Source of the DNA: a virus
Virus record (IMG/VR): IMGVR_UViG_3300049893_000404
Coordinates: 1-27,518 of that record
DNA length: 27,518 nucleotides
Reading direction: 5' to 3' (one strand)
Part shown: piece after piece, positions 3,122 through 18,381 of the stretch
Position numbering within the stretch: position 1 is the stretch's first letter
Layout of the letters: each line of letters starts with the position of its first letter
Translations under genes and position numbers: made by a program
The notes under the pieces: generated by a model
What the model saw: the letters and a program-made list of their open reading frames with translations, nothing else
The model's database searches: none
What the model was told of the DNA's origin: nothing

Positions 3122-3988
3122 TTACTTGTAAGAGATTTGGGCTGGTGTAATAATGAACTGAGATACCAAGTGGGCATCGGAGCGATTATCCAGTATGTGT
3201 CTCACCTTCAACTCTTTAGCTCTCAGAGGTTCCTTCTTGAAGGATCTCTTACCATAGTCCATATTAGCCTGGTTTACCACCTTATCCAAAGATAAGGACT
3301 CACATGTACGTATGAAAAGAGGTTCCTGCTTATACTTAACCAATGACCAGAATGTGTTGTACTGGTAGAAGTTATCACTCTTAGTAAACGTAATTGTCTT
3401 ACTACCAGTGTTATATAAAGGATACTTCAAGTAGTCCTTGAGGTTGTTGATTGGTTTAGGAACCAATTCCAGAATACCAGAGGACTGTTGACCATTGTAA
3501 ACTACAGCTTTATTGAACCAAGCATCATCAGTTTCTATCTTGCGGCTGTCATCAGACACACCATCTATATCAGGGAAGTATTTATACGCTTTGGTATAGT
3601 CTTGCACACTCTGTAGGATCTCATCCTGATAAGAGTAGGCAAATGGATACTCAATGATGTAAGGTTCGATGTTTCCGTAGAAGTAGTTATATATCACTGG
3701 ATTCTTCAGGTGCCTCCAGATACAAGCTGTTGTGGTTCTTGTATATTCTGTGGCTGCTAAAGCTACAATGTTTGTAACAGTGATTGGGAATGTCTTTTTG
3801 TTTTTACACTTGCCAGTAGACTCAACCGTCACCATGATAACATTATCATCTACAACATAACTAATTCCTTGAATCAGCTCATCTCTGGTAACATCTGTTG
3901 CCAGAATGGTACCGTATTCAGTGCTAATTGTAAAGGGTCCTGCTGTAGGCCCTGAGCTAGTTAACTTTATGATGATTGTTTTTGACAT
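3122..3988 (-). CDS. Conserved crAss-like virion protein, 288 aa, Ig-like N-terminus
   Basis: The gene starts 12 bases after the muzzle stop and ends one base before the next ATG (TAATATG). Residues 1 to about 70 look like a small beta module (TSSGPTAGPFTIST, then VTVESTGKCKNKKTFPI). I have the impression that this type of module is common in tail and fibre proteins of crAss-like phages. Residues 90-288 are aromatic-rich, with a long segment around WFNKAVVYNGQQSSGILELV. They end in a basic, conserved-looking tail (FKKEPLRAKELKVRHILDNR, then FIITPAQISYK). I infer a virion protein associated with the tail or muzzle from its place directly after the muzzle gene. It could instead be a cargo protein. 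I cannot name its function. Confidence 0.65.
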   Translation of the reverse strand: MSKTIIIKLTSSGPTAGPFTISTEYGTILATDVTRDELIQGISYVVDDNVIMVTVESTGKCKNKKTFPITVTNIVALAATEYTRTTTACIWRHLKNPVIYNYFYGNIEPYIIEYPFAYSYQDEILQSVQDYTKAYKYFPDIDGVSDDSRKIETDDAWFNKAVVYNGQQSSGILELVPKPINNLKDYLKYPLYNTGSKTITFTKSDNFYQYNTFWSLVKYKQEPLFIRTCESLSLDKVVNQANMDYGKRSFKKEPLRAKELKVRHILDNRSDAHLVSQFIITPAQISYK

Positions 3989-4000
3989 TCTTTTATTCTT

Positions 4001-7000
4001 TTACACTATACAGAAACCGCTTGCTGAAACAGTTCCAGATCCACCAGTGATGGTTATTGAACCTGTGATTGCACAAACATTCGCAGTGGTGGTAAATGAG
4101 CCCAAGGCAGGTTCACCAGTTCCACACTCTGACCAGCTAAGTTGAATAGAACCAATTGGTTCAACAAGATAGTTTGTACAGTTGTCCAAATAAGAGGTTG
4201 TAGTGGTTGTAGTTGTGCTACTGCTTGTAGTGGTGGTCGTAGTTGGTTCTATAGTTGTAGTGGTAGTTGTGGTTGGAATACAAGAAGCACAGTCTTTTTC
4301 AGATGTACAAGGTGTTCCACAATTGTACTTGTACAGTATACCACCAGCTGGGCTAGTAACTATAAACAAACTTCCAGCCTTAATGCAATGCTCTGTAGAG
4401 ACTCCTACAGACAAAGTGTTAGTTTGCTGAACACCTTCACAATCTGTGTATTTGTAAGTTACTGGTAAAACATCTCCATTTAACACTGTCCAGCACTCAC
4501 AAGGCAATACTGTAGTGGTAGTGGTAGTTGTGGGAACAGCTGTAGTAGTTGTACTAGTAGTTGATGTAGTAGATGTACTTGTTGTAGTGGTTGATGTAGT
4601 GGAGCTGGTAGATGTACTAGATGTAGTGGTGGTAGTTGGAACAGGTCCAATTGTAGCAGCCAATACATCAAAGTCATCACAGCAGCCGTTAATACCAGAA
4701 TAGAAGAAGTTGTTCTCTCCAATATACCAGTTAGGTAGATAGCTATGGAAGCTTATCCAACTCTTTGTGTTGAAGTTGAAAGACACTGTCCAGCTCTTAT
4801 TACAGAAGTATTCTGTATCTGTTAGATATACTACCTTGCGTGTAACCAAAGGAGCAATAGTAGTAGTTGTTGTAAGAGTGCCTGGTTTAGTAGTTGTACT
4901 AGTTGTAGTGCCTGCGGATGTAGTGGTGCTGGTAGTAGTGGGAGGATTTTGAGGATATACATTATCCACATAAAACTCATTAGTTACAGGATCCCATTTA
5001 ACATCCTTACTGTTTGGTATATAATCAAGCTTTGTGATGATAATACGATCATATTTACTATCATACACCCCATGTAAACCAATACCATTGAAGTGGTTAT
5101 CAATAGGCATATCTGGGAAGTAACGCAAGATTTCAAATGCCAGATGGTCTGTAAAGAACCTATTCATTCCTGATCCAAAGGCTGACAGATCTGTAACCTG
5201 TGTACCAGCAACCAGAAATATCTGACCACGTTTAGCATCTACAGTAACCTGTCCTTGTGGAATCTTAAGAAGCATCTTGTGTTGGCTTCCTACATATCCC
5301 AAATCAGTTTCGGCAAAATCGATTGGAGGTGCTCCTCTGAATAGAGATGGATTACCAACATAAGCTGCTTGAGGATTGCTAGTGTCAATAGTTAACAGGT
5401 TATTGTACAACAAGCTCTTGTTCTCAAATCTAGCCAGAATAGCTTTGTTCTGAATTCCATCCAGAGAAATAAGATTTCCAAAGTTTTGAGGGAAATCAAA
5501 ATAAGATATAGCTCTGTAAGTGAGCCAGTTGTTCACTGTATTATCAGCATCTATATTCTGTGCATCTGAATAGATTGCTCTAAACGGATACTGTGTGAAA
5601 CATATAGCCTTCCAGTCATATGGCAGGTGTGTAAATACATTCTCTTTATTCTGCTTACTATATGTTACATTATAATAGTAAGTGTTATCCTGAGAAATAG
5701 GTACATAATTTTCTTGTACCCAGTCATCAGGAATACCTGTACTTACGTGAGGCCAGAAGTCACCTTCTCTATTATTGAAAGCCTGACGTAGATCTACGTT
5801 ATAGGAACTCTCACAATAGAAATAAGGAATACCATAAGCAAACACATACATCTTACCATCATAGTAGGTTCTACCAGGACTTGTGATGGGAGTTTGACTA
5901 TTAGGACAGTCTAGCTGATTTGCCTTAATAGAGATGAAGTTTGTAAGATTCTGTTGACCAGCTGTTGCTGTAGTGAGGATGGAACGTGCTGAGTGCCAGT
6001 ATTTTGGATAGGCAACGTTACCAATCTCATCGTAGAATATATCACTATCATCAGGAGCATTCACCCTATTATCAATAAAGAAAGGAAGCTTGGTCTTAAA
6101 GGCAAACTTACTGATGAATGTATCACCTCCAAAGAACGTAGCAGTGCTTACTGTCAGAGGAGTGATATCTCTTTGGAATCCTGTATCTACAGTTGCATAA
6201 GAATAGATCTGCCCATATTGATTGGCATATATATTCTTCAGAGATGCATAATAGGATATTGTACTTATGTATTCTTCCTTAGCAGGAGTGCTACAGTTAT
6301 TATCAGTTCCATTAACACCAGCAGCACTAAGAGTCATTCTAGATCTATCGTTAACTGCTCCACCGATAGTAGGTGTCTGGTTGGGGAATGGTAGAGGCGG
6401 TCTGTTAGCATTTGTCTTTAGGTAGACAGAACTTTCTCTGTTCCAGTTATTTACAACTTTATCATCACCTACCCCTTGTACACCAGGAATTAGATATTGT
6501 TTTAAATCAAGCTCACGCTGTTTAACACCTAAGTTATTGTTGATATCACTACTATAATCATAACTAGCTGTAGAGTTATATGAGTAGGCATAGTTACGTC
6601 TGGTGATACCATTTACATAGATTGTAAGATAGGACTGATAGGCAGCAAAGAGAGCTGTAGCATTGTAGGGATTTGTGATAGCTGCTATATTATTAGCACT
6701 ATTCAATGCATCCTGCTGAGCCTCAGCACTTAGAAGCCTGTACATGGCGTTCTTGTTCACCTGCACAAAGTGAGCTCTACCAGCTCCATAGATTACATTC
6801 TCTAGTTTGAGAATGCTACCCAAGAATGGCTGTCCAAAAGAAGTCTCAGGAGAGTTAAATACATGTCTGTATTGGGATGCGGGATCACCAAAAGCATCCA
6901 GTTTGTCTGGATAACAATTGCTTGTTCCCACTGAACGAACATATTCTATCTTAAAGGTTGTACCTGCACCTAGATTACTTTGATCAAATGTAGGTGATGT

Positions 7001-9352
7001 CAGTGATGCAACTAAGAAAGAATAGCTACCTGATCCACCAGTGTCTACTGCTAGATACTGATTACTCAGGTCAAGAGGTTTATTAAAAACCGAGTCACAG
7101 CAAGAAACTGAAGGATTAAGAGCACAATACTTTGTCCAACCATCAATAGGACCACCAGGCATTGCATATCCTGCAGGAGGTGGAAGTGGGTTTCCTTGGT
7201 ACAAGCCACATCTGGTAATTGGCCAAACCAATCTAAATACAACAGTTTGTGGTGTAGAAGGGACTAAATCAATTGTAATCCTATATACATTATAAGTGTT
7301 AGATCCTATTGATCCAGCAGCACCATTTCTAAAGGTAGGTTTTGGATAGTCAAGAGCACACAGGTGAATAATAGTTCCCACCTCAGCAGGCGTGATATCC
7401 CTGGTGGTTATTTCTCCTGTGTAACAGTCAAGGTATTCAATTTGACCAGCAGCTGTTGGATAGATGCTGAAATCTCTACATATAGAGGTGGTGCTTGTTG
7501 CAGCAAGTGGAACAGTATAAGCATTGCTCTTCTCAAGCAAGAATGGGTCTTGTCTAAGATCGTTATAAGGATAGTTGGGGAAGTAGTATTCTGTACCCTC
7601 ACGGTTATACTTACCCATGTTTCTAAGAATACCCTTAGCTACGATAGATCTATTGGTGCTTCTGTCACCACGAATAATCTTAAATCCAGCTATCTGATTC
7701 TTCTGTTCAGTGGTGAGATTGGATGCTTGGATGAGAGATTGTACTTGTTGTACGTCTATTTTTACACCCATTGGAAAGACAGCATCCTTCTGAATCACCA
7801 TTGTGTCTTGTCCTGTGAATAGGGCAGACTCAAATATAGGGCTCACTAGAACATCTGGAAACTTATGATGTCTGATCTTCTGACCAGCTAGGTTTCCCCA
7901 TAATTCTTTGTTACAAGGATATTCTTCTAGAGACTCCCAGTAGGCAAATTCGCCATATTGATAGGCACCCTTGTAACTTGCTGCTGGAGAATAGCCAGGA
8001 GAGAATCCTGATACAGATCCTGTATTATATATCTTCCAATAGGGACTGGTTCCTGTAATAGGATCTGGCTCACCTATGAAATCATCATTAGTTTGTGGAA
8101 CAGGAACTAAATCATTATTAACTGCTACTCTTCCAGGGATATGGAATCCATCAGTTTGTTTACCGTTATGTAGGAGGAATACAATCTCAAAAGCATACAC
8201 TTCATCCCTTAGATACCCACGCAGGTTTGTAGCATTTAGCTCGTCTGCATAAGTTTCTGTGCTAGGAATACGGTAGGTTTCCCACTGGAGGGTGATGCCA
8301 CTAGCTATCTGCTGGTAGTTAATTCTTTCAACAGATGTAAGTTGGTCCCATACAAGAATATCACGCACAGCTGTTACGTCCTGAGCAATCTCGTAATAAG
8401 GAAACTTCTCAAATATATCATCAACTGTAAGACGAACATTAGTCTTGTTTTGACCTGAGTAAGTGATCACCTGACTTGGACCATCAATAAAATACGTACC
8501 TATCAACTGTACGGATGTGATAGCATTTATAGTTCTAACAACTGCTATATTAAAGTATTGGTAGAGTCCTGTGTTATCTAAGTTGCTGACAGTGAGCTCA
8601 ATAGATCTACCCACTGGATAATTAAAATTAGCAGTGGTGATACTTGGGTCAGCAATAGGAGTGGGATTGGTAACAGAGTAGTAGGAAGTGTAAGGATTAG
8701 AAGCAGAGTCACAATACTGAATAGCAAACTGATATGTACCTGCCTCCAACTCACCACCTGAAACTATATTTGTAACATCTAGTTGAGGAATAACAAAGTC
8801 GGGCTGTACATTTAATCCATTACAATCTATTTGATCACTGTAAACAGGATCGCAGGCAGGTGTACCTCCTATAAGAATATAGGGTAGATTTTCAGGATTG
8901 AGATCAATATATCTGCGAGGATTAAGTCCGTCTGTCCAATACACCTCTGTTGTGCACTCTGTAATCTTGTGGACAGACTTATGAATAGGATGATTAATGT
9001 TGAAATTAAGACAGGGAGCATCTACATACTTATGGTAGATACAATCGTTATTATCCATGTACCCTATCTGAGAAGCACCTGTTTCTGGGTTGGTAATAAA
9101 AAATACGTGTTTGTTCTTCTCTTGGATGGAATGTGTACCAATTAATACAAAGCCAGAAGGGAATGTAACGCAAAGTTCATTCCCTGGCTCATTCTGATAG
9201 TTTACAGAATTTGAGTCAAAGTTTTCTACAGCAGCGTTCAGCGCGTACGTTAGCTTACCTTTACCAATCTGATTAAGAGTCTGATCTAGGTTTAAGCCAG
9301 TGGTAGCGTTGTTGAACTCCTGTCTAATACTCCCTTGTTCTTGCTCAGCCAT
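4001..9352 (-). CDS. Muzzle / P22 gp10-like tail protein, 1783 aa, with Thr-linked C-terminal modules
   Basis: This is the largest gene in the window. Its length, the beta-rich repetitive body and its position after the ring proteins fit the muzzle protein that forms the distal tail of crAss-like phages (described in older annotation as P22 gp10-like tail stabilisation). The start MAEQEQGSIRQEFNNATTGL is followed by a large, probably propeller-like region up to about residue 1465. It includes HFNGIGLHGVYDSKYDRIII near 1415-1440. The C-terminus is modular: a Thr/Ser linker near 1469-1500, an aromatic segment with SWISFHSYLPNWYIG, a long Thr/Ser linker near 1570-1615, then two Cys-bracketed beta modules of about 60-75 residues separated by another Thr linker. 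The modules resemble those of the 682-aa fibre. The first 1465 residues probably do the conserved structural job, and the tail may be exposed and variable. Confidence 0.8.
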   Translation of the reverse strand: MAEQEQGSIRQEFNNATTGLNLDQTLNQIGKGKLTYALNAAVENFDSNSVNYQNEPGNELCVTFPSGFVLIGTHSIQEKNKHVFFITNPETGASQIGYMDNNDCIYHKYVDAPCLNFNINHPIHKSVHKITECTTEVYWTDGLNPRRYIDLNPENLPYILIGGTPACDPVYSDQIDCNGLNVQPDFVIPQLDVTNIVSGGELEAGTYQFAIQYCDSASNPYTSYYSVTNPTPIADPSITTANFNYPVGRSIELTVSNLDNTGLYQYFNIAVVRTINAITSVQLIGTYFIDGPSQVITYSGQNKTNVRLTVDDIFEKFPYYEIAQDVTAVRDILVWDQLTSVERINYQQIASGITLQWETYRIPSTETYADELNATNLRGYLRDEVYAFEIVFLLHNGKQTDGFHIPGRVAVNNDLVPVPQTNDDFIGEPDPITGTSPYWKIYNTGSVSGFSPGYSPAASYKGAYQYGEFAYWESLEEYPCNKELWGNLAGQKIRHHKFPDVLVSPIFESALFTGQDTMVIQKDAVFPMGVKIDVQQVQSLIQASNLTTEQKNQIAGFKIIRGDRSTNRSIVAKGILRNMGKYNREGTEYYFPNYPYNDLRQDPFLLEKSNAYTVPLAATSTTSICRDFSIYPTAAGQIEYLDCYTGEITTRDITPAEVGTIIHLCALDYPKPTFRNGAAGSIGSNTYNVYRITIDLVPSTPQTVVFRLVWPITRCGLYQGNPLPPPAGYAMPGGPIDGWTKYCALNPSVSCCDSVFNKPLDLSNQYLAVDTGGSGSYSFLVASLTSPTFDQSNLGAGTTFKIEYVRSVGTSNCYPDKLDAFGDPASQYRHVFNSPETSFGQPFLGSILKLENVIYGAGRAHFVQVNKNAMYRLLSAEAQQDALNSANNIAAITNPYNATALFAAYQSYLTIYVNGITRRNYAYSYNSTASYDYSSDINNNLGVKQRELDLKQYLIPGVQGVGDDKVVNNWNRESSVYLKTNANRPPLPFPNQTPTIGGAVNDRSRMTLSAAGVNGTDNNCSTPAKEEYISTISYYASLKNIYANQYGQIYSYATVDTGFQRDITPLTVSTATFFGGDTFISKFAFKTKLPFFIDNRVNAPDDSDIFYDEIGNVAYPKYWHSARSILTTATAGQQNLTNFISIKANQLDCPNSQTPITSPGRTYYDGKMYVFAYGIPYFYCESSYNVDLRQAFNNREGDFWPHVSTGIPDDWVQENYVPISQDNTYYYNVTYSKQNKENVFTHLPYDWKAICFTQYPFRAIYSDAQNIDADNTVNNWLTYRAISYFDFPQNFGNLISLDGIQNKAILARFENKSLLYNNLLTIDTSNPQAAYVGNPSLFRGAPPIDFAETDLGYVGSQHKMLLKIPQGQVTVDAKRGQIFLVAGTQVTDLSAFGSGMNRFFTDHLAFEILRYFPDMPIDNHFNGIGLHGVYDSKYDRIIITKLDYIPNSKDVKWDPVTNEFYVDNVYPQNPPTTTSTTTSAGTTTSTTTKPGTLTTTTTIAPLVTRKVVYLTDTEYFCNKSWTVSFNFNTKSWISFHSYLPNWYIGENNFFYSGINGCCDDFDVLAATIGPVPTTTTTSSTSTSSTTSTTTTSTSTTSTTSTTTTAVPTTTTTTTVLPCECWTVLNGDVLPVTYKYTDCEGVQQTNTLSVGVSTEHCIKAGSLFIVTSPAGGILYKYNCGTPCTSEKDCASCIPTTTTTTTIEPTTTTTTSSSTTTTTTTSYLDNCTNYLVEPIGSIQLSWSECGTGEPALGSFTTTANVCAITGSITITGGSGTVSASGFCIV
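4188..4945 (-). repeat. Thr/Ser-rich linker tracts in the muzzle gene C-terminus
   Basis: Three tracts of mostly ACN codons lie at about 4188-4282, 4506-4642 and 4854-4945. They encode runs of Thr broken by Ser, Pro or Val. On the plus strand they appear as G/T-rich DNA. Threonine codons are mixed (ACA, ACT, ACC), so these are not pure triplet repeats. They separate an aromatic segment and two Cys-bracketed modules. Confidence 0.85.
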
Positions 9353-9358
9353 TGGTTA

Positions 9359-10333
9359 TTAATTATTACGTCTCCAACCATACATTCCTCCAACTCGGTT
9401 GGGAAGTTCATACATATTAAATCTGTTCAGGTCGTTCTTAATTCTACGTTGCTTAGCCCACGGATCTTGCTTCTTAATCTCAATATCAGCCATGATGAAT
9501 GCCTCTTCAGCTTGTTGTTTGTAATATCCAAGCTTTTGTTGTAGTTGATTAAAGGTCTCATCATTAGTCTGATTGGTGAGAGTCTCCATCATTTTGTACT
9601 TGATGAAAGCCTCAATATATTCTCTCACACGGAAGTTATCAGGGATCATTTGATTACCACCAGCATCATATTCTGTAGCGTAGAAAATCAAATGCACCAC
9701 TCCATTACGGAAGTTGGTTACAAACTTATTATCTCTAATGTCAAATGAATCATATCCAGCAGAGCCAGGGGTAAACTCACGAAGAGGGGGTGCCTCTTGA
9801 TAGAATTCCCAATTGCTGGTATAGTCCACTCCACAGTTATTTCTAGCAGAAATATTTCCTGGTTTCAGGAGATACTCTCTTGTATAAAGTACAGGGGCTT
9901 GGTTGTTTGTCTTATAAACAGCCTGTACTAGATTGGGCATACATTTAGGGCAGAACTCCTGACCACAGTTACCAGCTTCACAAGGATTGCCGTACACAAT
10001 AACAGGGCTCACCTGAATTGTTGTAGAGCTAGCAGCCTGTGAGTAGAAAGAGTTAGCTTGCTGATAAGGGAAGCCATTTACAGCTGTGCAAAGCCACGCT
10101 TCACGAACAGCATAGAAGTTATCTGGAAGTCTAGATTCATAGTCACAGATGTACAACACCTGCTCTTGAATTACATATGTTGCTCTACCCAGCTTTCTAA
10201 GACACTTGTCCAGATAGGTGGGGAACATAAGATCATCTATAGCTCCTGTATCAAAGTAGCTTTTAAACTCCTCTTTTACAGTGGAATAGACAACCTCAGG
10301 AGAGATGAAGTTATATTTGTAATAGTATGACAT
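9359..10333 (-). CDS. Ring / head-tail adaptor protein, 324 aa
   Basis: This protein directly precedes the muzzle gene (TAA, then 6 bases to ATG) and follows the IHF-like gene. The N-terminal part (FPTYLDKCLRKLGRATYVIQ, then a loop with LPDNFYAVREAW) and the C-terminal helical part (YIEAFIKYKMMETL, then an Arg/Lys-rich tail) resemble tail-tubular or P22 gp4-type adaptor proteins: a helical bundle interrupted by a beta-rich insertion. The insertion carries a cysteine cluster C118-x4-C123-x4-C128-x2-C131 that could bind a metal. I infer one of the ring proteins stacked between portal and muzzle. The ring assignment rests on position and character, and the exact ring number is not assignable. 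Confidence 0.7.
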   Translation of the reverse strand: MSYYYKYNFISPEVVYSTVKEEFKSYFDTGAIDDLMFPTYLDKCLRKLGRATYVIQEQVLYICDYESRLPDNFYAVREAWLCTAVNGFPYQQANSFYSQAASSTTIQVSPVIVYGNPCEAGNCGQEFCPKCMPNLVQAVYKTNNQAPVLYTREYLLKPGNISARNNCGVDYTSNWEFYQEAPPLREFTPGSAGYDSFDIRDNKFVTNFRNGVVHLIFYATEYDAGGNQMIPDNFRVREYIEAFIKYKMMETLTNQTNDETFNQLQQKLGYYKQQAEEAFIMADIEIKKQDPWAKQRRIKNDLNRFNMYELPNRVGGMYGWRRNN

Positions 10334-10338
10334 CTAGA

Positions 10339-10815
10339 TTATTTTTTCCATTCGTTATAAATGTGCTGATACTTCTCGTCAGTTTTGATAAAGTGTGACA
10401 ACAATCTCGATGTGTTTCTGGAGGGTTTAAAATACCATAGCCCTGAGTGTCTAAATCTGGCTGTTTCTTTAAACCAAACCCATCCAAAGAAATAACCCTC
10501 TGTGTGAAAGTTGAAGTTGTAGATGCGCTTACCTTTCTCTTTGGTCTTTTTCCAGTCGATGGGTAGGTTTACAAACTCTTTACCATCCACCCCTTTCATC
10601 TTTCTACGCTTCTTCTTGTTAATAGAGAACTCACCAAATCCAAACGGAAGCCTTGCTCTTTCTCCTGTCTCTAGGATGTATTCTTTGAAAGCTTCGTTAT
10701 AGGTGTAGATAACATCTCTCCATTGATCAAACGTCAGCTTGATAGAGGGATTCTTCTTACAGAAATTGTTGTAGTTTTCTTTACTGGCGCTTCTCCAGTC
10801 TATTTTGATTCGCAT
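10339..10815 (-). CDS. IHF/HU-fold subunit in the neck gene block, 158 aa
   Basis: Residues 43-72 (FKEYILETGERARLPFGFGE, then FSINKKKRR) match the HU/IHF pattern in which a helix is followed by a Gly-Glu turn, then GFGxF and a basic strand. An IHF-like subunit at this place among tail genes is known for crAss-like phages. The start ATG follows the upstream TGA by one base (TGATATG), and the gene is flanked by two ring-type proteins. The C-terminal half (residues 90-158) is aromatic and basic (FFGWVWFKETARFRHSGLWY) and goes beyond a minimal HU protein of about 90 residues. Given the neighbours I infer that it is a structural neck component using the fold. A DNA-binding role is the alternative. 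Confidence 0.72.
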   Translation of the reverse strand: MRIKIDWRSASKENYNNFCKKNPSIKLTFDQWRDVIYTYNEAFKEYILETGERARLPFGFGEFSINKKKRRKMKGVDGKEFVNLPIDWKKTKEKGKRIYNFNFHTEGYFFGWVWFKETARFRHSGLWYFKPSRNTSRLLSHFIKTDEKYQHIYNEWKK

Positions 10816-10816
10816 A

Positions 10817-11545
10817 TCATCTCAAGTTTGGAGCGTTTGGTGCTTGACCATCAACTCCATCACTTGTGATGTCTGTTTTCAACCTGAAGTAGGTAGCTAA
10901 TAACTTCTGAGAAGTTAATTCAAGAACTTGCTTTTCTAGGTAACCAGGAACAGGAGACTCTTTGTCAAGAGGATTCTTGCATAGTTCTTCTGTTGTGTAT
11001 TCTGGAGTACCACAGCCACATTCTGGATACATAATGGAATTAGGTACATCCTCCTCGAACAAAGCAACAAGTCTGATAGCTTTTAGGAGGGGATTGTTTA
11101 CGTACAGATATCCATTAGAAATCCAGTAGTATTCTTCCTTCTTAATGATAGGAAGCTTAAGCAAATTAATGTATCTGTTGATGGTTATTTCTTTTAGTTT
11201 CTTTCCTTGTCCACTCATCGCATTAATTGAGTAGACACCTTGTATAACATACTGGTAGTTGCCCTCTGTAATGCGTGGAAGTTTGAACTTGGTTCTAGCC
11301 ACAGAACAAGGATCTACATAATCACAACATTCAGAAATAGGAACTTCTACCATCTCCAGACAGGGGATGGTAGTGAATACTGTGTCAGTAGCCCAAAGCT
11401 TCCTCAGATTAGTCTCACGTTTAATCAGAAGGAAGGCATTGTTCTTAATCTCAGACATAACAGCTCTATCCGTGATCAAGTTGTCCGTAGAGAGCAACTT
11501 GTGCATGGAGCGTACATCTGAAACTAATTTCCTAAAAGTAGCCAT
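10817..11545 (-). CDS. Ring / neck structural protein, 242 aa
   Basis: The start codon overlaps the phosphoesterase stop by one base (TAATG), indicating translational coupling. The N-terminus is helical and charged (MATFRKLVSDVRSMHKLLST). It is followed by a Cys-containing beta region (PISECCDYVDPCSVARTKFK), a segment around YYWISNGYLYV, and a second Cys cluster (YPECGCGTPEYTTEELC). The C-terminus is helical up to a Gly/Pro/Asn-rich tail. I know proteins of this kind as conserved in the tail block of crAss-like phages and infer a ring protein between portal and muzzle. No enzymatic motif is seen. Its exact place in the particle cannot be told from sequence alone. Confidence 0.65.
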   Translation of the reverse strand: MATFRKLVSDVRSMHKLLSTDNLITDRAVMSEIKNNAFLLIKRETNLRKLWATDTVFTTIPCLEMVEVPISECCDYVDPCSVARTKFKLPRITEGNYQYVIQGVYSINAMSGQGKKLKEITINRYINLLKLPIIKKEEYYWISNGYLYVNNPLLKAIRLVALFEEDVPNSIMYPECGCGTPEYTTEELCKNPLDKESPVPGYLEKQVLELTSQKLLATYFRLKTDITSDGVDGQAPNAPNLR

Positions 11546-12795
11546 TATAAATACTGTTTGAATATGTTCGTTATTCCGTCTACAAAATCTATCAGGAATC
11601 CTGTCACCTCACCTTTCACCGCTGTATATCCATTCTTATCATCCCAAGAACTCTTGGCTGTAGAGAAGGCAGGGAGCTGGTAGAACTTAATACCGTTGAA
11701 ATCCAGACTCACCTCGTGGTGTTTGTCTCCTGTAAATATGTAGAAATTATCGTGATCTGACCACTCGTTTTTAAATTCTATAGGGAACAAGTGAGCAAGT
11801 TTTGCTGGTTTTAAAGCATCCCCATGATTGAACATCATTGCTGAGGTTCCGTAACTTACATACTTTCTATATCTTGGAGAGATGTCAAAGAACACACGCT
11901 CCTCGTTTCTAAAGTAGGTTTGTAACCAACTAGCCAAGTGCCAGCCTACAAACTCATCGTGATTACCAGCTACAAAGATTATATCAACTGAATCACCTTT
12001 CTGAAGGAGGAGGTTGATAACACTCACCTCATGATCACAGATTGCTTGGAAAGCATCGTGATAAGAGAGGATATTTTGCTGGGGAGTACCCTTTGTAGTT
12101 GTGTTAGTGAACTCACTATTGAACTCATCAGAACCAATAATGTACTTGATATCTGTGAGATTGTTGGCTAAAGAAGCCTGATTTAAGATGATTTCCACCC
12201 TCTGGATAAAATCACCAAAGCGTTTGTCTATATCATTATCACCTCCAATATCTAGCTTGTTTAAGTGGGCATCCTGTTTGTTTATAATTAGACAGGCATC
12301 CTTCTTAGCTGTGTCAAACTTTGGAGCCATTATTTCAGGGGAGGATGGTCGATAGTTCTCAAGGAAGTTGATAAAGCTATCCTGGAATATCTGCTCATTC
12401 TTCTTTTTACCCAACCAAGCTTTCACCTGATAGTGAGGCTGGTCAGCATTTCCCCAGTAGTTTTGGACGTATTTAGTTATCTCCCACTTATCTGTATCTA
12501 TCTTACATTTTTCAATCAGCTCGTCTAAACTCTTGATTTCTTCCTTAGAGTTGAGTACCACTTCACCTGTTCCCTTCTGAATATCCTCAAAAAACCTTAC
12601 CACCTGATCCTCTAATTCTCCAATATAGTTACCAACTTCTGCTTCTTCCTGTGCCACTTGTGAGCCTCGCAGCTCCTTTATCAATTCATCCACCTCACTT
12701 TCTGTAATGTTGAGTTTGTCTGCATAGAACTTCTTGCTCTTTTTCCAGTGTAGCATTTGCTCCAGCTGGTGCAGAAGGGATTGATTTTCAGGCAT
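11545..12795 (-). CDS. Calcineurin-like metallophosphoesterase with N-terminal helix-turn-helix-like region, 416 aa
   Basis: Metallophosphoesterase motifs appear in order: DAH at 175-177 (the DxH motif), GSDEFNSE at 221-228 (in place of GDxxD/N), GNHD at 277-280, NHGD at 323-326, and GDKHH at 356-360 (in place of GHxH). The spacing fits a complete catalytic domain from about residue 165 to 385. Residues 19-45 (KKFYADKLNITESEVDELIK) look like a helix-turn-helix, and 50-150 is helical. The reaction would be metal-dependent hydrolysis of a phosphoester; the substrate (nucleic acid, nucleotide or protein) is not evident. It is the first gene after a terminator and promoter candidate and is coupled (TAATG) to a neck gene. 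Two motifs are non-canonical, so altered activity is possible. Confidence 0.85.
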   Translation of the reverse strand: MPENQSLLHQLEQMLHWKKSKKFYADKLNITESEVDELIKELRGSQVAQEEAEVGNYIGELEDQVVRFFEDIQKGTGEVVLNSKEEIKSLDELIEKCKIDTDKWEITKYVQNYWGNADQPHYQVKAWLGKKKNEQIFQDSFINFLENYRPSSPEIMAPKFDTAKKDACLIINKQDAHLNKLDIGGDNDIDKRFGDFIQRVEIILNQASLANNLTDIKYIIGSDEFNSEFTNTTTKGTPQQNILSYHDAFQAICDHEVSVINLLLQKGDSVDIIFVAGNHDEFVGWHLASWLQTYFRNEERVFFDISPRYRKYVSYGTSAMMFNHGDALKPAKLAHLFPIEFKNEWSDHDNFYIFTGDKHHEVSLDFNGIKFYQLPAFSTAKSSWDDKNGYTAVKGEVTGFLIDFVDGITNIFKQYL

Positions 12796-12823
12796 TTACA
12801 TTTTGATTTAGTTAAAATTGCAG

Positions 12824-12855
12824 TAAAGGTACAAAACTTTTTAATATTTTCCAAA
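12824..12855 (-). promoter_or_regulatory. Bacteroides-type promoter candidate for the phosphoesterase/neck operon
   Basis: On the minus strand TTTG (12852-12855) is followed after 20 bp by TACCTTTA (12824-12831). This fits the Bacteroidota consensus TTTG, 19-21 bp, TAnnTTTG at all but the last base. It lies 29-60 bp upstream of the phosphoesterase ATG and just after a terminator. The match is short in an AT-rich sequence, so confidence is moderate. Confidence 0.55.
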
Positions 12856-12882
12856 TTATTTTAACCACTCAGGTTAGCGTGG

Positions 12883-12899
12883 ATAACTAAGTTAGTTAT
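12883..12899. promoter_or_regulatory. 17-bp palindrome, operator candidate
   Basis: ATAACTAA and TTAGTTAT form a perfect 8+1+8 inverted repeat. It sits between the terminator (12901-12968) and the promoter candidate (12824-12855), with its promoter-proximal edge 27 bp upstream of the TTTG box. An activator or repressor site is possible. It could also simply be part of a larger RNA fold. Confidence 0.4.
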
Positions 12900-12900
12900 A

Positions 12901-12968
12901 AAATAAAAACTCCCCAGGGTAGAAACCCCAGGGAGAACACCCTGAAAACCAACAAACAGGGAGTTTTT
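12901..12968 (-). terminator. Intrinsic terminator after the 682-aa fibre gene, with an alternative outer arm
   Basis: On the minus strand CTCCCTGGGG and CCCTGGGGAG form a 10-bp stem (two G-U pairs) with a TTTCTA loop at 12910-12935. It is followed directly by TTTTTATTT. On the plus strand the two G-U pairs become A-C mismatches, so the hairpin favours minus-strand RNA. An outer perfect 10-bp inverted repeat, AAAAACTCCC (12905-12914) with GGGAGTTTTT (12959-12968), competes for the same 3' arm and could also work in the plus direction. Confidence 0.85.
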
Positions 12969-12974
12969 GACTAT

Positions 12975-15023
12975 TTACGGAATCTCATCAACGGTTACCG
13001 TGATGCTATGGTTACCATCTAGGAAGTAATTCTTAACAGAGTTAACTGTTGTTGATATTGCAAAAGGTATACTGATTGTTTCACCAGAGCTACCATCATT
13101 GGCAGTTCCCACAATTGTTATTGTGTATCCCTGCGCTAACACCAGCTGACGCATTGTTATGTTACAGTATCCAGCTATGTTGGACTGAGTGATAGGACCA
13201 GCTTGACCAGCATCAATTGTCACCCCAATTGCAGTTCCACTTCCAGGACCATATAGACAGTTTGCCATATCTGCTGTATAGTCATTGGTTGTAGGATCTC
13301 CAGCTCCTCTTTGAATTATCATGTCACCAGGAGTAATTCCAATTGCAGTTACCACTGTGAAGCAAGCATTAGCGCTCAAAGAAGGAAGAGGTTCAAATAC
13401 TGTTTCACCAGGTATACAAGTGAAAGGATCAAGAGGATTAGATGAATACGGGAAGTAGTCAATAAAATATGCGTATTCTGTACTTCCTGATCCAATCAGA
13501 TATGGAGTTCCACCCACTGTAATAGAATAGCTATTTAGGGTGGTAGCCAAAGGTGTTGTCAAACCTGCATCTGAGAAGAATGCAATCCATACAGACTTAG
13601 ATTGAGAAGGTTCCACTACAGGATTACCATCACAACTAATTGTAATTGATGTGTCTACTTCTCCCTGAGACCAGAATAGGGCAGCATAGGCATTAGTAGG
13701 GAATCCGTTTGTGATACAAGAAGTAGTAGTTGTAGTGGTTGTTGTTGGAGGAGGAGGAGGTGCTTCAGTAGTAGTTGTAGTAGTTGTTGGACAAGTGTTT
13801 CCACAAAGTGTACCTGCAGTGATATTTGCAAATCCACCTATTATCACTACACTATTCTCTACAGCACAAGTGATTGCATAAGGAGTAGAGTCACTTAACA
13901 CTGCGTCTCCTGTAGTTCCATTACAGTTAATCCATTGAATTGTTGCAGTGGGATCAGCTGTAACTGTGTATGAATAGCAATTATCACATACTAAAGTGGT
14001 AGTTGTTGTGGTGGTAGGAGGAGGGACACAAGAATTTCCACAATAGGTTCCTTGTGTAATTATTGGATCTCCTCCCTCATTTAAAACACTACCTTCTTGT
14101 GCACAAGAAATGATTGTAGGTTCAGTGAATGTTCCACTACCACCAGTTCCATTACAATTAGTCCAAGACACACTAGCAGTTCCTAAAGGATCTACAGTAT
14201 ACTCATAACAATCAATACACACTGTAGTGGTAGTTGTAGTGGTAGGAGGAGGTACTTCAGTTGTTGTAGTGGTTGTTGTTGGGGGAACAAGAGTAGTAGT
14301 CGTAGTGGTTGTAGGAGGTATAACAGTAGTGGTAGTTGTGGTGGTTGGGGGAATAACAGTGGTAGTGGTTGTAGTGGTTGTAGGAGGAATAGTAGTTGTT
14401 GTAGTTGTAGTTGGTGTAGGACATACTCCAAGATCTGTAACAGTTACACCAGGTACTGGTGAAACAACAACAGATCCTGTACATGCACATATGTAAATAA
14501 CATCAGGTCCTGTTATAGATGTGGTTACATAAGTTCCTCCACAAGCATAGTAGGCAACATTAATAGTTGTAACAGTAGAATTATTTACAGAATACAGCGT
14601 ACAAGAAGAACATGCTATTGTGGTGGTAGTAGTTGTTGTTGGAGGGAAAGCTGTGGTTGTGGTAGTTGTGGTTGGAGGAATAATTGTAGTGGTAGTAGTT
14701 GTACTTGGGGGAAGTAGTGTAGTGGTAGTTGTTGTACTTGGAGGAATAATCGTAGTGGTGGTTGTAGTGGTTGGGCAGCAATTATTTATAGCAATGTATA
14801 TATTTGTAATTTGCTGTTTAATAAGACATATCTGAGCATCAATCTTTTGAAATGCCACACTTACCGAGTCACAATTTTTAATTTGTGTACACGGAAGAGT
14901 GGGACCATTATAAAAAACATTATTGGTTGATATGGGAGATGCATTACAAGGGTCACATCCATTATGCGTGCCACATGGAGAAGGTACTGTTGTGCAGCAA
15001 GGATTTGGTGGCAGAAATATCAT
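12975..15023 (-). CDS. Fibre-like virion protein with poly-Thr linkers and Cys-bracketed beta modules, 682 aa
   Basis: The N-terminus is Cys-rich with a short helical segment (VAFQKIDAQICLIKQQITNI). Residues 38-61 align without gaps to residues 21-44 of the neighbouring collar fibre, suggesting a common anchor. Then follow a Thr linker of four PPTTTTTT-type units (84-137), a Cys-bracketed module (138-201), a second linker of five units (202-268), module 2 (269-332), a short Thr linker, module 3 (346-411), a Pro/Thr linker (412-435) and a distinct beta-rich domain (436-682) with no family I recognise. Modules 2 and 3 share the pattern CYxYTV, W.NCNGT, C..E.SV, CGN.C. I infer a surface appendage on the head or tail, built as beads on flexible, possibly glycosylated Thr rods. 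A terminator follows 7 bases after the stop. Confidence 0.75.
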   Translation of the reverse strand: MIFLPPNPCCTTVPSPCGTHNGCDPCNASPISTNNVFYNGPTLPCTQIKNCDSVSVAFQKIDAQICLIKQQITNIYIAINNCCPTTTTTTTIIPPSTTTTTTLLPPSTTTTTTIIPPTTTTTTTAFPPTTTTTTTIACSSCTLYSVNNSTVTTINVAYYACGGTYVTTSITGPDVIYICACTGSVVVSPVPGVTVTDLGVCPTPTTTTTTTIPPTTTTTTTTVIPPTTTTTTTVIPPTTTTTTTLVPPTTTTTTTEVPPPTTTTTTTVCIDCYEYTVDPLGTASVSWTNCNGTGGSGTFTEPTIISCAQEGSVLNEGGDPIITQGTYCGNSCVPPPTTTTTTTLVCDNCYSYTVTADPTATIQWINCNGTTGDAVLSDSTPYAITCAVENSVVIIGGFANITAGTLCGNTCPTTTTTTTEAPPPPPTTTTTTTTSCITNGFPTNAYAALFWSQGEVDTSITISCDGNPVVEPSQSKSVWIAFFSDAGLTTPLATTLNSYSITVGGTPYLIGSGSTEYAYFIDYFPYSSNPLDPFTCIPGETVFEPLPSLSANACFTVVTAIGITPGDMIIQRGAGDPTTNDYTADMANCLYGPGSGTAIGVTIDAGQAGPITQSNIAGYCNITMRQLVLAQGYTITIVGTANDGSSGETISIPFAISTTVNSVKNYFLDGNHSITVTVDEIP
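14220..14420 (-). repeat. Tandem PPTTTTTTT-type linker, five units
   Basis: The encoded unit is two variable residues, then two or three Pro, then seven or eight Thr, about 11-13 residues long (IPP, VIPP, VIPP, LVPP, EVPPP, each followed by Thr). At DNA level the units are similar but not identical because Thr codons vary. The plus strand is G/T-rich and almost free of C. Confidence 0.9.
14613..14774 (-). repeat. Tandem PP(S/T)TTTTTT linker, four units
   Basis: Units IIPPS, LLPPS, IIPPT and AFPPT are each followed by six or seven Thr and lie between the fibre N-terminus and its first beta module. The codons are mixed ACN. It is the same kind of repeat as 14220-14420, but with different spacer residues. 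Confidence 0.9.
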
Positions 15024-15044: not shown

Positions 15045-16157
15045 TTAAGGAATGTACATGATGTAATAACATCCAAGACCAGGTTGGAAGTTAGGATGGC
15101 CTAATCCTCCTCCTGCAGAAGCAACTGTGACAGTAGTGCCTACGGTGACACCAGTTTGTGCTGTATCTACCACATCAACTCTTTCCTTGCTCTGCCAGTC
15201 AAAACAGTCAGTACCACTAGGACTAACACTATTTCCTCTATCTCCAGTACCAGCCCACGTGTCTGCAACAAGACTATGCTTGTGACCAGGATCTGTTACA
15301 GTGCTTACAGCACTAGCAGTGTGAGTGTGAGAAGGAATCTGATTAGTGGTAAGTATTACAGAGTTAGTTCCTTGTGTTCCTAATAATGCATAAGCAGGAT
15401 TACCAAGAGCTGGGTCAACAGCAGGATTCAGAGTGCCACCACCCATACCAGCGGTAACACCAACTGGTACACGTCCTCTTTTATCGGGTGTACCATTGTT
15501 TCCATTACAGAGGTAGATTTTCTCCCAAAGACCAAGACCAGCACCTGTAGTATCAAAGTTACCTGTAAGACTGCCATAGTATTCTACAACAGTGTAGGGC
15601 ACCATCTTAGTGTTATACTTGACACCACCTCCACTAATTGATGCTAGATAGGCAGCAATAAGTGTATTCAGGTTTGCAATCTGTACATAGTTTGTATGTA
15701 CATCTAGAGCAAGAGCATTTAGTGCAACCTCTAGACCACAAATCTTAGTGATGGCTGCCTGAAGGATGGCATGAGTTCCAGATGTGCTAGTTACACCAGT
15801 GAGACATCCTACAGTGTAGGGTCCTTCTAATGCAGCAAAATCACCCTCTAATTCTGTAAGACGTTCATCTAATTCACAGATGGCCTTAATGAGAGCAGTG
15901 ATTACATTAGGAAGACTAAGCTCTTCACAAGCAATTAAATTTTTCTTTATAATATCACAAATGATGGTAGGATTAATATCCAACTTGATACCCTCACCAT
16001 TCAGTGTAGATGTGAGAAACTCGATCAATGCTTGCTCTACATATGAGAGCGAATCACCAGTTTTGATTCCCAAAACGGGAACATCAATTCCTGTATATTT
16101 TACGCACTGATCGGATACAATCTCTGTACACCCATTATAGCAATTAGAACAAGACAT
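15045..16157 (-). CDS. Tail-collar-domain fibre protein, 370 aa
   Basis: The start ATG abuts the previous stop (TAAATG). Residues 1-60 are a Cys-containing anchor-like region with YTGIDVPVLGIKTGDSLSYV. Residues 60-175 are helical (ICELDERLTELEGDFAALEG). About 185-235 fits the phage tail collar domain (WEKIYLCNGNNGTPDKRGRV). It is followed by IPSHTHT (274-280), GHKHS (291-295) and the C-terminal HPNFQPGLGCYYIMYIP (354-370), the typical ending of such fibres. The His-x-His motifs recall the metal-binding sites of T4 gp12-like fibres. I infer a trimeric fibre, probably in receptor binding or as a head fibre; its attachment site is not shown by sequence. The next gene downstream is another fibre with a similar anchor. 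Confidence 0.82.
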   Translation of the reverse strand: MSCSNCYNGCTEIVSDQCVKYTGIDVPVLGIKTGDSLSYVEQALIEFLTSTLNGEGIKLDINPTIICDIIKKNLIACEELSLPNVITALIKAICELDERLTELEGDFAALEGPYTVGCLTGVTSTSGTHAILQAAITKICGLEVALNALALDVHTNYVQIANLNTLIAAYLASISGGGVKYNTKMVPYTVVEYYGSLTGNFDTTGAGLGLWEKIYLCNGNNGTPDKRGRVPVGVTAGMGGGTLNPAVDPALGNPAYALLGTQGTNSVILTTNQIPSHTHTASAVSTVTDPGHKHSLVADTWAGTGDRGNSVSPSGTDCFDWQSKERVDVVDTAQTGVTVGTTVTVASAGGGLGHPNFQPGLGCYYIMYIP

Positions 16158-17193: not shown

Positions 17194-18381
17194 TTACGGA
17201 ATCAAAGTTGATGTAGTAGTAGTAGAAGGCCATACAGTGGTTGTGGTAGATGTAGTGGTGATACAAGAGTTATCAGCAGTTACAGTACCCAAACCAGCCT
17301 CAAGAACAGCTTCGATAAGTCCACCAATAGGATTAGCAGATCCAGAACCATCAGTCTGAGGAGTAGCGATGATTACAGTGCTATCTTCTTTGATGTAGTC
17401 ACCCCAGCTGTATGCAGATTTATCCAGCTCGTTGAACTTGATGTAGTAAGTATCGTAGGTAGTACCATCAGATACCCAGCTTTCAAAGTTCTCATTGTAG
17501 CCGTTCATTCTGTAGAGGTGCTTCAAGTAACCAGCTTGGTAGCTGTAGAAGTTCTTCTCCAGTTGAGCAATCTCAGCGGATGTACCAACAGCGTAAGAAG
17601 AACGCTGTACAATCACTGGGTTAGCTACAATGTTACAATTGTCTGCTACGATGAAGTCAGCTGTGGTAGCGGGACCGCTGTACACGAATGTACGGAACCA
17701 CATTCTGTCATACTCGAAAGGAAATGCTGCTACATCACAAGGCTGACCATATTTGGTAAGAGGCTTACCAGTGATACGCAAGAAAGCGTTTTGGTCGTCA
17801 CCAATTCTCTGGAACTGATAGAAGTCAGAGAAAGTGATGTTGTCAGGGTTGTTACCAGGAGCCTGATACAAGAAGTGAAGGATGATGTCATCGATCAAAG
17901 CAGGCACATCAACAGTAGTACAAGGATCACCACCACAATCGCAACAAGGTGCATTTACAGTGATAGAACGAGTGAAACCGTTGAAGTACAGGGTATCCAA
18001 GTAGCTAGAGTGAGCACGCAAAGTGATAGTAACGATGTCACCACACTGTACATTCCAGTTTCCTACGTCTGTAATCTGAGTTACAGGAGTAGGGCAACCA
18101 ATCACTTTGTACCACTCAGTTACGTTGGTATTGCAACCAGCACCTGAAGGACAACCTTTAATCTTATCAGAACGCTTAGAGCCTTGCAGATAAGTGTTAG
18201 TACGGCCCTGCGCAACATAAAAATAGGGAGCAGCAGCAATGTTACCAGCTGTTGCTAAGCTATAGTCATTGAGGAAGATACCTACCTGACCAGCTGTTAA
18301 GTCTTGCGTAGATCCAGAGCTAGGGAGCGCAGTTTGCCCTACTGGTACTACGAAGAGCGTAGTTAATGAAAAATCAGCCAT
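17194..18381 (-). CDS. Virion structural protein with C-terminal Thr tail, 395 aa
   Basis: The start MADFSLTTLFVVPVGQTALP follows a 29-bp AT-rich gap. The body is beta-rich with paired cysteines (GCPSGAGC, NAPCCDCGGDPC) and a helical stretch around 265-300 (AEIAQLEKNFYSYQAGYLKH). The last 23 residues switch to a Thr/Ser run (CITTTSTTTTVWPSTTTTST) and then stop, with no module after it. A cluster downstream of the capsid gene and its own terminator suggest a well-expressed head protein, perhaps auxiliary capsid or head-fibre base. I know similar proteins as conserved virion components in crAss-like phages, but cannot name this one with certainty. Confidence 0.68.
   Translation of the reverse strand: MADFSLTTLFVVPVGQTALPSSGSTQDLTAGQVGIFLNDYSLATAGNIAAAPYFYVAQGRTNTYLQGSKRSDKIKGCPSGAGCNTNVTEWYKVIGCPTPVTQITDVGNWNVQCGDIVTITLRAHSSYLDTLYFNGFTRSITVNAPCCDCGGDPCTTVDVPALIDDIILHFLYQAPGNNPDNITFSDFYQFQRIGDDQNAFLRITGKPLTKYGQPCDVAAFPFEYDRMWFRTFVYSGPATTADFIVADNCNIVANPVIVQRSSYAVGTSAEIAQLEKNFYSYQAGYLKHLYRMNGYNENFESWVSDGTTYDTYYIKFNELDKSAYSWGDYIKEDSTVIIATPQTDGSGSANPIGGLIEAVLEAGLGTVTADNSCITTTSTTTTVWPSTTTTSTLIP

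Follow-up and report, generated by a model that had tools for sequence, protein, structure and literature searches.

The stretch analyzed here (the window) is the entire 27.5-kb virus record IMGVR_UViG_3300049893_000404 of IMG/VR (27,518 nucleotides); the record is incomplete, and its minus strand bears the genes for terminase, portal, and major head protein. On the same strand lie the two genes of a muzzle, the tail-tip protein of crassviruses, and a fibre-like open reading frame (ORF) of 682 residues, and our subject is the small cysteine-bracketed modules that both proteins carry on threonine/serine (Thr/Ser) linkers (Table 1). The ORF at 4001-9352 was identified as a crassvirus-type muzzle by its match to phrog_37948 (E 2.9e-107), and the ORF at 3122-3988 matched the C-terminal end of phrog_15100, a muzzle family. 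The best match among named muzzles was that of phage Lbo-JY46 (34.4% identity, E 9e-91), and the muzzle core was 28.8% identical to the annotated muzzle of csAssE-Sib (E 2e-46). The 682-residue ORF had no family match in Pfam or PHROGs; it begins with a cysteine-rich, coiled-coil-like anchor and ends in a large domain (about 12978-13720) unrelated to the modules, and its neighbour, ORF 15045-16157, matched tail-fibre families. Because the ORF itself lacks a family match and the tail-fibre match belongs to its neighbour, we call it a fibre provisionally, from its position and architecture.

Table 1 Features of the muzzle and fibre genes in the window.
Feature	Coordinates	Strand	Remarks
F1, family A module, fibre	14418..14615	(-)	Position-specific subfamily; also in fibres of L002-L004, L085, and others
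F2, family A module, fibre	14025..14222	(-)	Missing in L004
F3, family A module, fibre	13788..13991	(-)	Missing in L004
M1, second module type	4277..4507	(-)	CxC start and extra Cys-rich end; same fold family
M2, family A module	4004..4192	(-)	C-terminal end of muzzle N-part
Thr/Ser linkers around M1 and M2	4190..4636	(-)	Tracts 4505-4636 and 4190-4273
Muzzle N-part, 1783 aa	4001..9352	(-)	Equivalent to residues 31-1457 of the single-gene Lbo-JY46 muzzle
Muzzle C-part, separate gene, 288 aa	3122..3988	(-)	Equivalent to Lbo-JY46 muzzle residues 1458-1645
GPF domain, about 75 aa	3764..3988	(-)	Start of muzzle C-part
Fibre-like ORF, 682 aa	12975..15023	(-)	F1-F3 and 14 Thr tracts
Lineage-specific insertion in muzzle core, about 215 aa	6872..7522	(-)	Without counterpart in Lbo-JY46
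Family A-like domain without Thr linkers	7295..7480	(-)	Begins the core insertion; conserved in the muzzles of the lineage
Additional Thr/Ser linker in muzzle	4853..4939	(-)	Inserted between outgroup residues 1408 and 1412
Thr/Ser tail without module	17206..17259	(-)	C-terminus of the 395-aa ORF 17194-18381

A reading of the letters without database searches (the sequence-only reading) had placed three modules in the fibre, at 14421-14612, 14028-14219, and 13791-13988, where F1, F2, and F3 indeed lie in frame, and two similar ones at the muzzle C-terminus, which we recovered as M1 and M2 and which belong to the same family. The modules are linked by (T)6-8 tracts with PP/xP spacers. Pairwise alignment scores were compared with those of 500 shuffles, also with the cysteines held in place. 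F2 and F3 scored 167 against 33 ± 8 in the shuffles; F2-M2 and F3-M2 each scored 97 against about 31 ± 6, a score reached by none of the 500 shuffles. F1 was weaker, its score with F2 being equalled in 4/500 shuffles and that with M2 in 0/500. M2 was also detected by a profile built from the fibre modules only (E 2.4e-6). The pairwise scores of M1 were at shuffle level except against F1, and M1 was not seen by the fibre profile. Profile-profile comparison of the M1 type and its relatives with the other modules gave 96.3% in hhalign with a score of 46.5 (no more than 19.9 in 100 controls in which all columns but those of cysteine were shuffled), and a profile built without M1 detected it at E 2.4e-9. 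The grouping of the five modules in the sequence-only reading was thus right, for F1, F2, F3, and M2 by profile and for M1 by these two comparisons. The CxxC start that it had described holds in the fibre modules but not in the muzzle, where M1 starts with CxC and M2 with a single C.

We refer to these small, beta-rich domains of about 60-70 residues as family A; they have 4-6 cysteines in the pattern C-x2-Y-x-V ... W/Y-x2-C-x-G ... C-A-x2-G-S-V/I ... C. The domain in the muzzle core (about 7295-7480) joins the family as well (hhalign 95.1% with a score of 39.3; controls reached 15.1 at most), and iterated search of the relatives gave about a hundred copies. Family A had no match in Pfam or PHROGs: 30 modules tested in Pfam gave chance-level hits to unrelated families, and Pfam offered no family for the fibre or the muzzle, with its Ig-like, BACON, and PKD models unmatched. 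Neither the fibre nor F3 had a match among 50,697 phage records, a search of genome contigs with the module patterns gave no relative, and the family A profile had no match in 296 genomes from the G001 phylum. Because the same profile detects the window and its relatives, this last null result is not a fault of the profile. Judged from these comparisons, family A is a new small protein family that the databases do not cover.

AlphaFold models were generated for one fibre module and one muzzle module (pLDDT 95.6 for F3 and 92.1 for M1). Their strands (4-22, 27-32, 38-44, and 49-65 in F3; 3-10, 16-22, 27-32, 37-43, and 58-67 in M1) lie at nearly matching positions in the same order, and the two models have leading BFVD neighbours in common (A0A6J5M7Y7, A0A6J5MG40, A0A6J5NSF4, and A0A516LQL8_1); the structural neighbours are mostly proteins without a name from uncultured phages. 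The predicted folds of this pair are thus not unrelated, the outcome that would have refuted the sequence-only reading, and the models support that F3 and M1 share a fold. Among solved structures, neither the modules nor the muzzle had a useful match by sequence, and structural matches were weak, with best Z values of 4.5 and 5.1; they included CBM36 (Foldseek E 0.49, Z 3.2) and CBM29 (E at least 0.65), with TMq 0.34-0.42, and Ena1C and Ena2A of the Bacillus endospore appendage (Z 4.5 and 4.8, root-mean-square deviation 3.3 and 2.9 over 63-64 residues). A small cysteine-rich beta domain with Ena1C and Ena2A at or near the top of its solved-structure neighbours would also be in keeping with modules that act not as receptor binders but as structural spacers, or as disulphide-linked subunits polymerising head to tail like those of spore appendages. 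We regard this as unlikely, because Z scores of 4.5-4.8 fall in the uninformative range of the tool, the Foldseek E values exceed 0.3, and the number of modules per protein ranges from none to several, unlike that of a polymer subunit.

The module array of the muzzle is located exactly where the muzzle is split. In the Lbo-JY46 muzzle, the parts equivalent to the two window ORFs are contiguous at 1457|1458, with no residues missing between them; in the window, the two halves are in the same frame and 12 nt apart. For comparison, we collected 80 loci by muzzle search and added L001-L003 and L084-L086 from module searches. The C-part is a separate gene in 65/65 loci with room for it, a count that covers only contigs long enough and includes a few duplicate loci, and it is fused in the outgroups L087, L088, and L089. 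In 16 of 60 loci the halves are separated by 249-1734 nt, and in most of these cases extra ORFs with Thr tracts or a GPF domain occupy the space. By homology, the window encodes a split muzzle, both parts of which are homologous to the crassvirus muzzle. Readthrough or a programmed frameshift joining the halves was considered and rejected: the frame relation of the halves across contigs is random (23/19/18), so that neither can be the shared mechanism, the stop codons are TAA in 58/60, and the second part has a conserved ATG as its start. Because the phicrAss001 muzzle (gp44) makes up the tail tip, is variable through insertions, and is believed to contact the cell surface (PMC10172136), display of the modules at the tail tip is the natural inference. 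The two muzzle parts would presumably come together in a single tail-tip complex from which the modules would project on the outside of the virion, where they may bind glycans or proteins of the host surface or the environment.

Throughout the lineage, the muzzle C-terminus consists of Thr/Ser-linked modules in a varying array, and it is not the only carrier. Proteins with Thr tracts belong mainly to three module-bearing anchors: 79 have the GPF domain, 70 the N-terminus of the fibre, and 70 the core of the muzzle; GPF is a 75-residue domain that opens many small module-carrying ORFs in the relatives. Among the 35 module clusters with at least two members, 12 occur on more than one anchor, or 10 once two artefacts are dropped, namely a segment of the muzzle itself and a fibre at a contig end. 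The family A cluster is found on all three anchors, and so is the M1-type cluster. The nearest relatives of F3 sit on the fibre in L006 and on the muzzle C-terminus in L001-L003 and L015; F3 is about 75% identical to the muzzle C-terminal module of L001-L003, and in L002 and L003 the fibre ORFs that were seen have no module other than one of the F1 type. That two proteins with different cores bear the same detachable parts, as had been proposed from the letters of the window, is therefore borne out. Because Fib_succ_major (PF09603) is present on the muzzle C-terminus of L055 (L055:14423-15016, E 9e-36) and on a GPF-anchored ORF of L026 (L026:5602-6414, E 2e-42), it fills the same slot. Raw blast hits between the muzzle and other proteins in L079 and L074 were set aside as Ser-Thr low complexity; L079 has Ser-Thr repeat runs (about 90 residues) in three proteins, at 3366-4664, at 6253-7125, and at the muzzle C-terminus.

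Modules have recently been exchanged between anchors and between genomes. One terminal module is 99.0-99.5% identical at the DNA level between a GPF ORF (L011, L077) and fibres (L005, L085), with cores at 80-84%; the identity collapses within the upstream Thr tract and, on the other side, persists beyond the stop codon. Between L008 and L015, fibre-module identity is 100% with cores at 77%. F2 matches a module of L006 at 95.6-95.7% DNA identity and lies within a 227-nt patch that is 95.6% identical to L006 and has both ends in Thr tracts (cores 83%). The closest relative, L004 (94% identical muzzle core), lacks exactly F2 and F3, and both edges of the difference are in Thr tracts. In principle, old duplications within each lineage could have been inherited vertically and homogenised locally by gene conversion within each genome, with no exchange between phages, and F1-type modules do form a nearly fibre-only group in the module tree, in which anchor labels are clustered more than by chance. 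However, copies within a genome are diverged (best pairs 74% and 69%), whereas copies in different genomes reach 99-100% identity at cores of 77-84%, and the difference between L004 and the window, whose cores are 94% identical, amounts to exactly two modules. Vertical inheritance with gene conversion is therefore disfavoured, and we consider it very improbable.

Directly after the last fibre/GPF gene of L011 stands a conserved GC-rich hairpin followed by a T-run (L011:1868-1960; CTCCCTGGGG...CCCTGGGGAGTTTTT), which is the same in L005, nearly so in L085, and terminator-like.

With near-identical module patches, diverged cores, and patch ends in Thr/Ser tracts, the exchanges lend DNA-level support to the suggestion of the sequence-only reading that modules recombine at the Thr tracts. 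By our own count over the pairs examined, from which one patch that is itself a tract was left out, 15/16 in-gene ends of high-identity patches fall in a Thr/Ser tract or no more than about six residues away from one; this figure somewhat overstates the case, as Thr tracts diverge fast and may end alignments without a crossover. Because the tract codons are mixed and the longest exact match between fibre and muzzle is 18 nt, ordinary homologous recombination would work poorly there. Other limits bear on the account as a whole: the tree of 88 modules is weakly resolved, and of its 17 anchor changes by parsimony only 1-2 per group are forced by well-supported branches, and many of the contigs compared are fragments.

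All tracts consist of degenerate (ACN)n sequence; they are about 75% identical to one another and lack perfect repeats. Adjacent codons are identical in 26% of cases against 33% expected, and codon identity between tracts is not above that of shuffles (161/2000 as high). Replication slippage of the tracts was rejected on the same grounds, the codons being mixed with no excess of identical neighbours. Such degenerate DNA, with no excess of codon identity and no exact fibre-muzzle match longer than 18 nt, is what can be said for domain shuffling in which illegitimate joints arise anywhere and selection keeps those in flexible linkers, the tracts being tolerated rather than driving recombination. 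We take this to be a possible but doubtful account: several patches start in a tract, cover the module, and continue into conserved DNA on the downstream side, the pattern expected of a double crossover with one homologous end, and the tracts do align with one another. Relaxed phage recombinases may use homology of about 75%, as between the tracts. The Thr/Ser tracts may be substrates for relaxed recombination, or they may be merely tolerated joints.

Taken together, we consider it quite probable that family A modules are interchangeable Thr/Ser-linked units that are swapped among anchors and phages at the tracts, and that the muzzle split houses their array. Our working hypothesis is that the modules would be surface-display domains on flexible linkers that extend from the tail at no fewer than three anchor proteins, namely the muzzle N-part, the fibre, and the small ORFs opening with the GPF domain. 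They would be gained, lost, and traded across anchors and phages through recombination whose junctions lie in the Thr/Ser tracts; because all tracts are degenerate (ACN)n stretches, each gives partial homology to every other. In this lineage the muzzle is cut at a loop into two adjacent genes, and the cut is where the array and often extra module ORFs are inserted. More tentatively, and with confidence that falls a little short of even, we suggest that the tail tip is an open platform, in which the permanent muzzle split acts as a recombination slot for Thr-linked modules and GPF-anchored genes exchanged via (ACN)n tracts. If so, host recognition would evolve by cassette swapping among anchors and not by point mutation or a diversity-generating retroelement (DGR). 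The exchange can be read at the DNA level, as the same module on a different anchor with near-identical sequence and joints in threonine tracts, and with anchors, linkers, and cassettes defined, the evolution of host range in uncultured crAss-like phages becomes testable.

Outside the muzzle and fibre, homologues of the 395-residue ORF 17194-18381 in many relatives likewise bear Thr tracts. We found no link of the phage to the gut: its closest named muzzle relatives come from a Leptolyngbya phage, the human-gut epsilon crAss-like csAssE-Sib, and a marine Cellulophaga phage. The record of the closest named muzzle (L087, PP438436.1) gives the cyanobacterium Leptolyngbya boryana as host, and Crassvirales are described as infecting Bacteroidetes (PMC10136315). 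Binning into metagenome-assembled genomes (MAGs), by itself weak evidence of host, placed one relative in a Flavobacteriaceae-named MAG and one in a Tissierellales-named MAG.

The closest known system is the crassvirus muzzle (gp44 of phicrAss001 and the 'Muzzle protein' of csAssE-Sib), the core of which is homologous to the window muzzle over most of its length and which likewise differs in length through distal insertions (PMC10172136). A hexameric tail-tip assembly and a single polypeptide that includes the C-terminal domain are marks of the crassvirus muzzle; that of the window is encoded by two genes, has Thr-linked arrays at the split, and contains a family A domain within an insertion of its core. 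The Ig-like/BACON domains of phage virion proteins are also small modules that vary in number and combination, and Ig-like adhesins of gut Crassvirales are modular, with epithelial adhesion shown (PMC13370021). Unlike these, the window modules are cysteine-rich, are joined by poly-Thr linkers, and match no Ig, BACON, or PKD model in Pfam, and their exchange among muzzle, fibre, and small ORFs is shown at the DNA level. Fib_succ_major is an alternative module in the same slot, but it is about 185 residues long and family A has no Pfam match to it. Zeta crAss-like phages diversify their tail fibres with DGRs, by point hypermutation of a lectin domain (PMC12386605); the lineage of the window also diversifies crAss-like tail fibres, but by whole-module exchange. 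Modular display domains on phage tails are already known (PMC13370021), but in the literature searched we found no account of crassvirus modules on poly-Thr linkers or of a crassvirus muzzle encoded in two parts.

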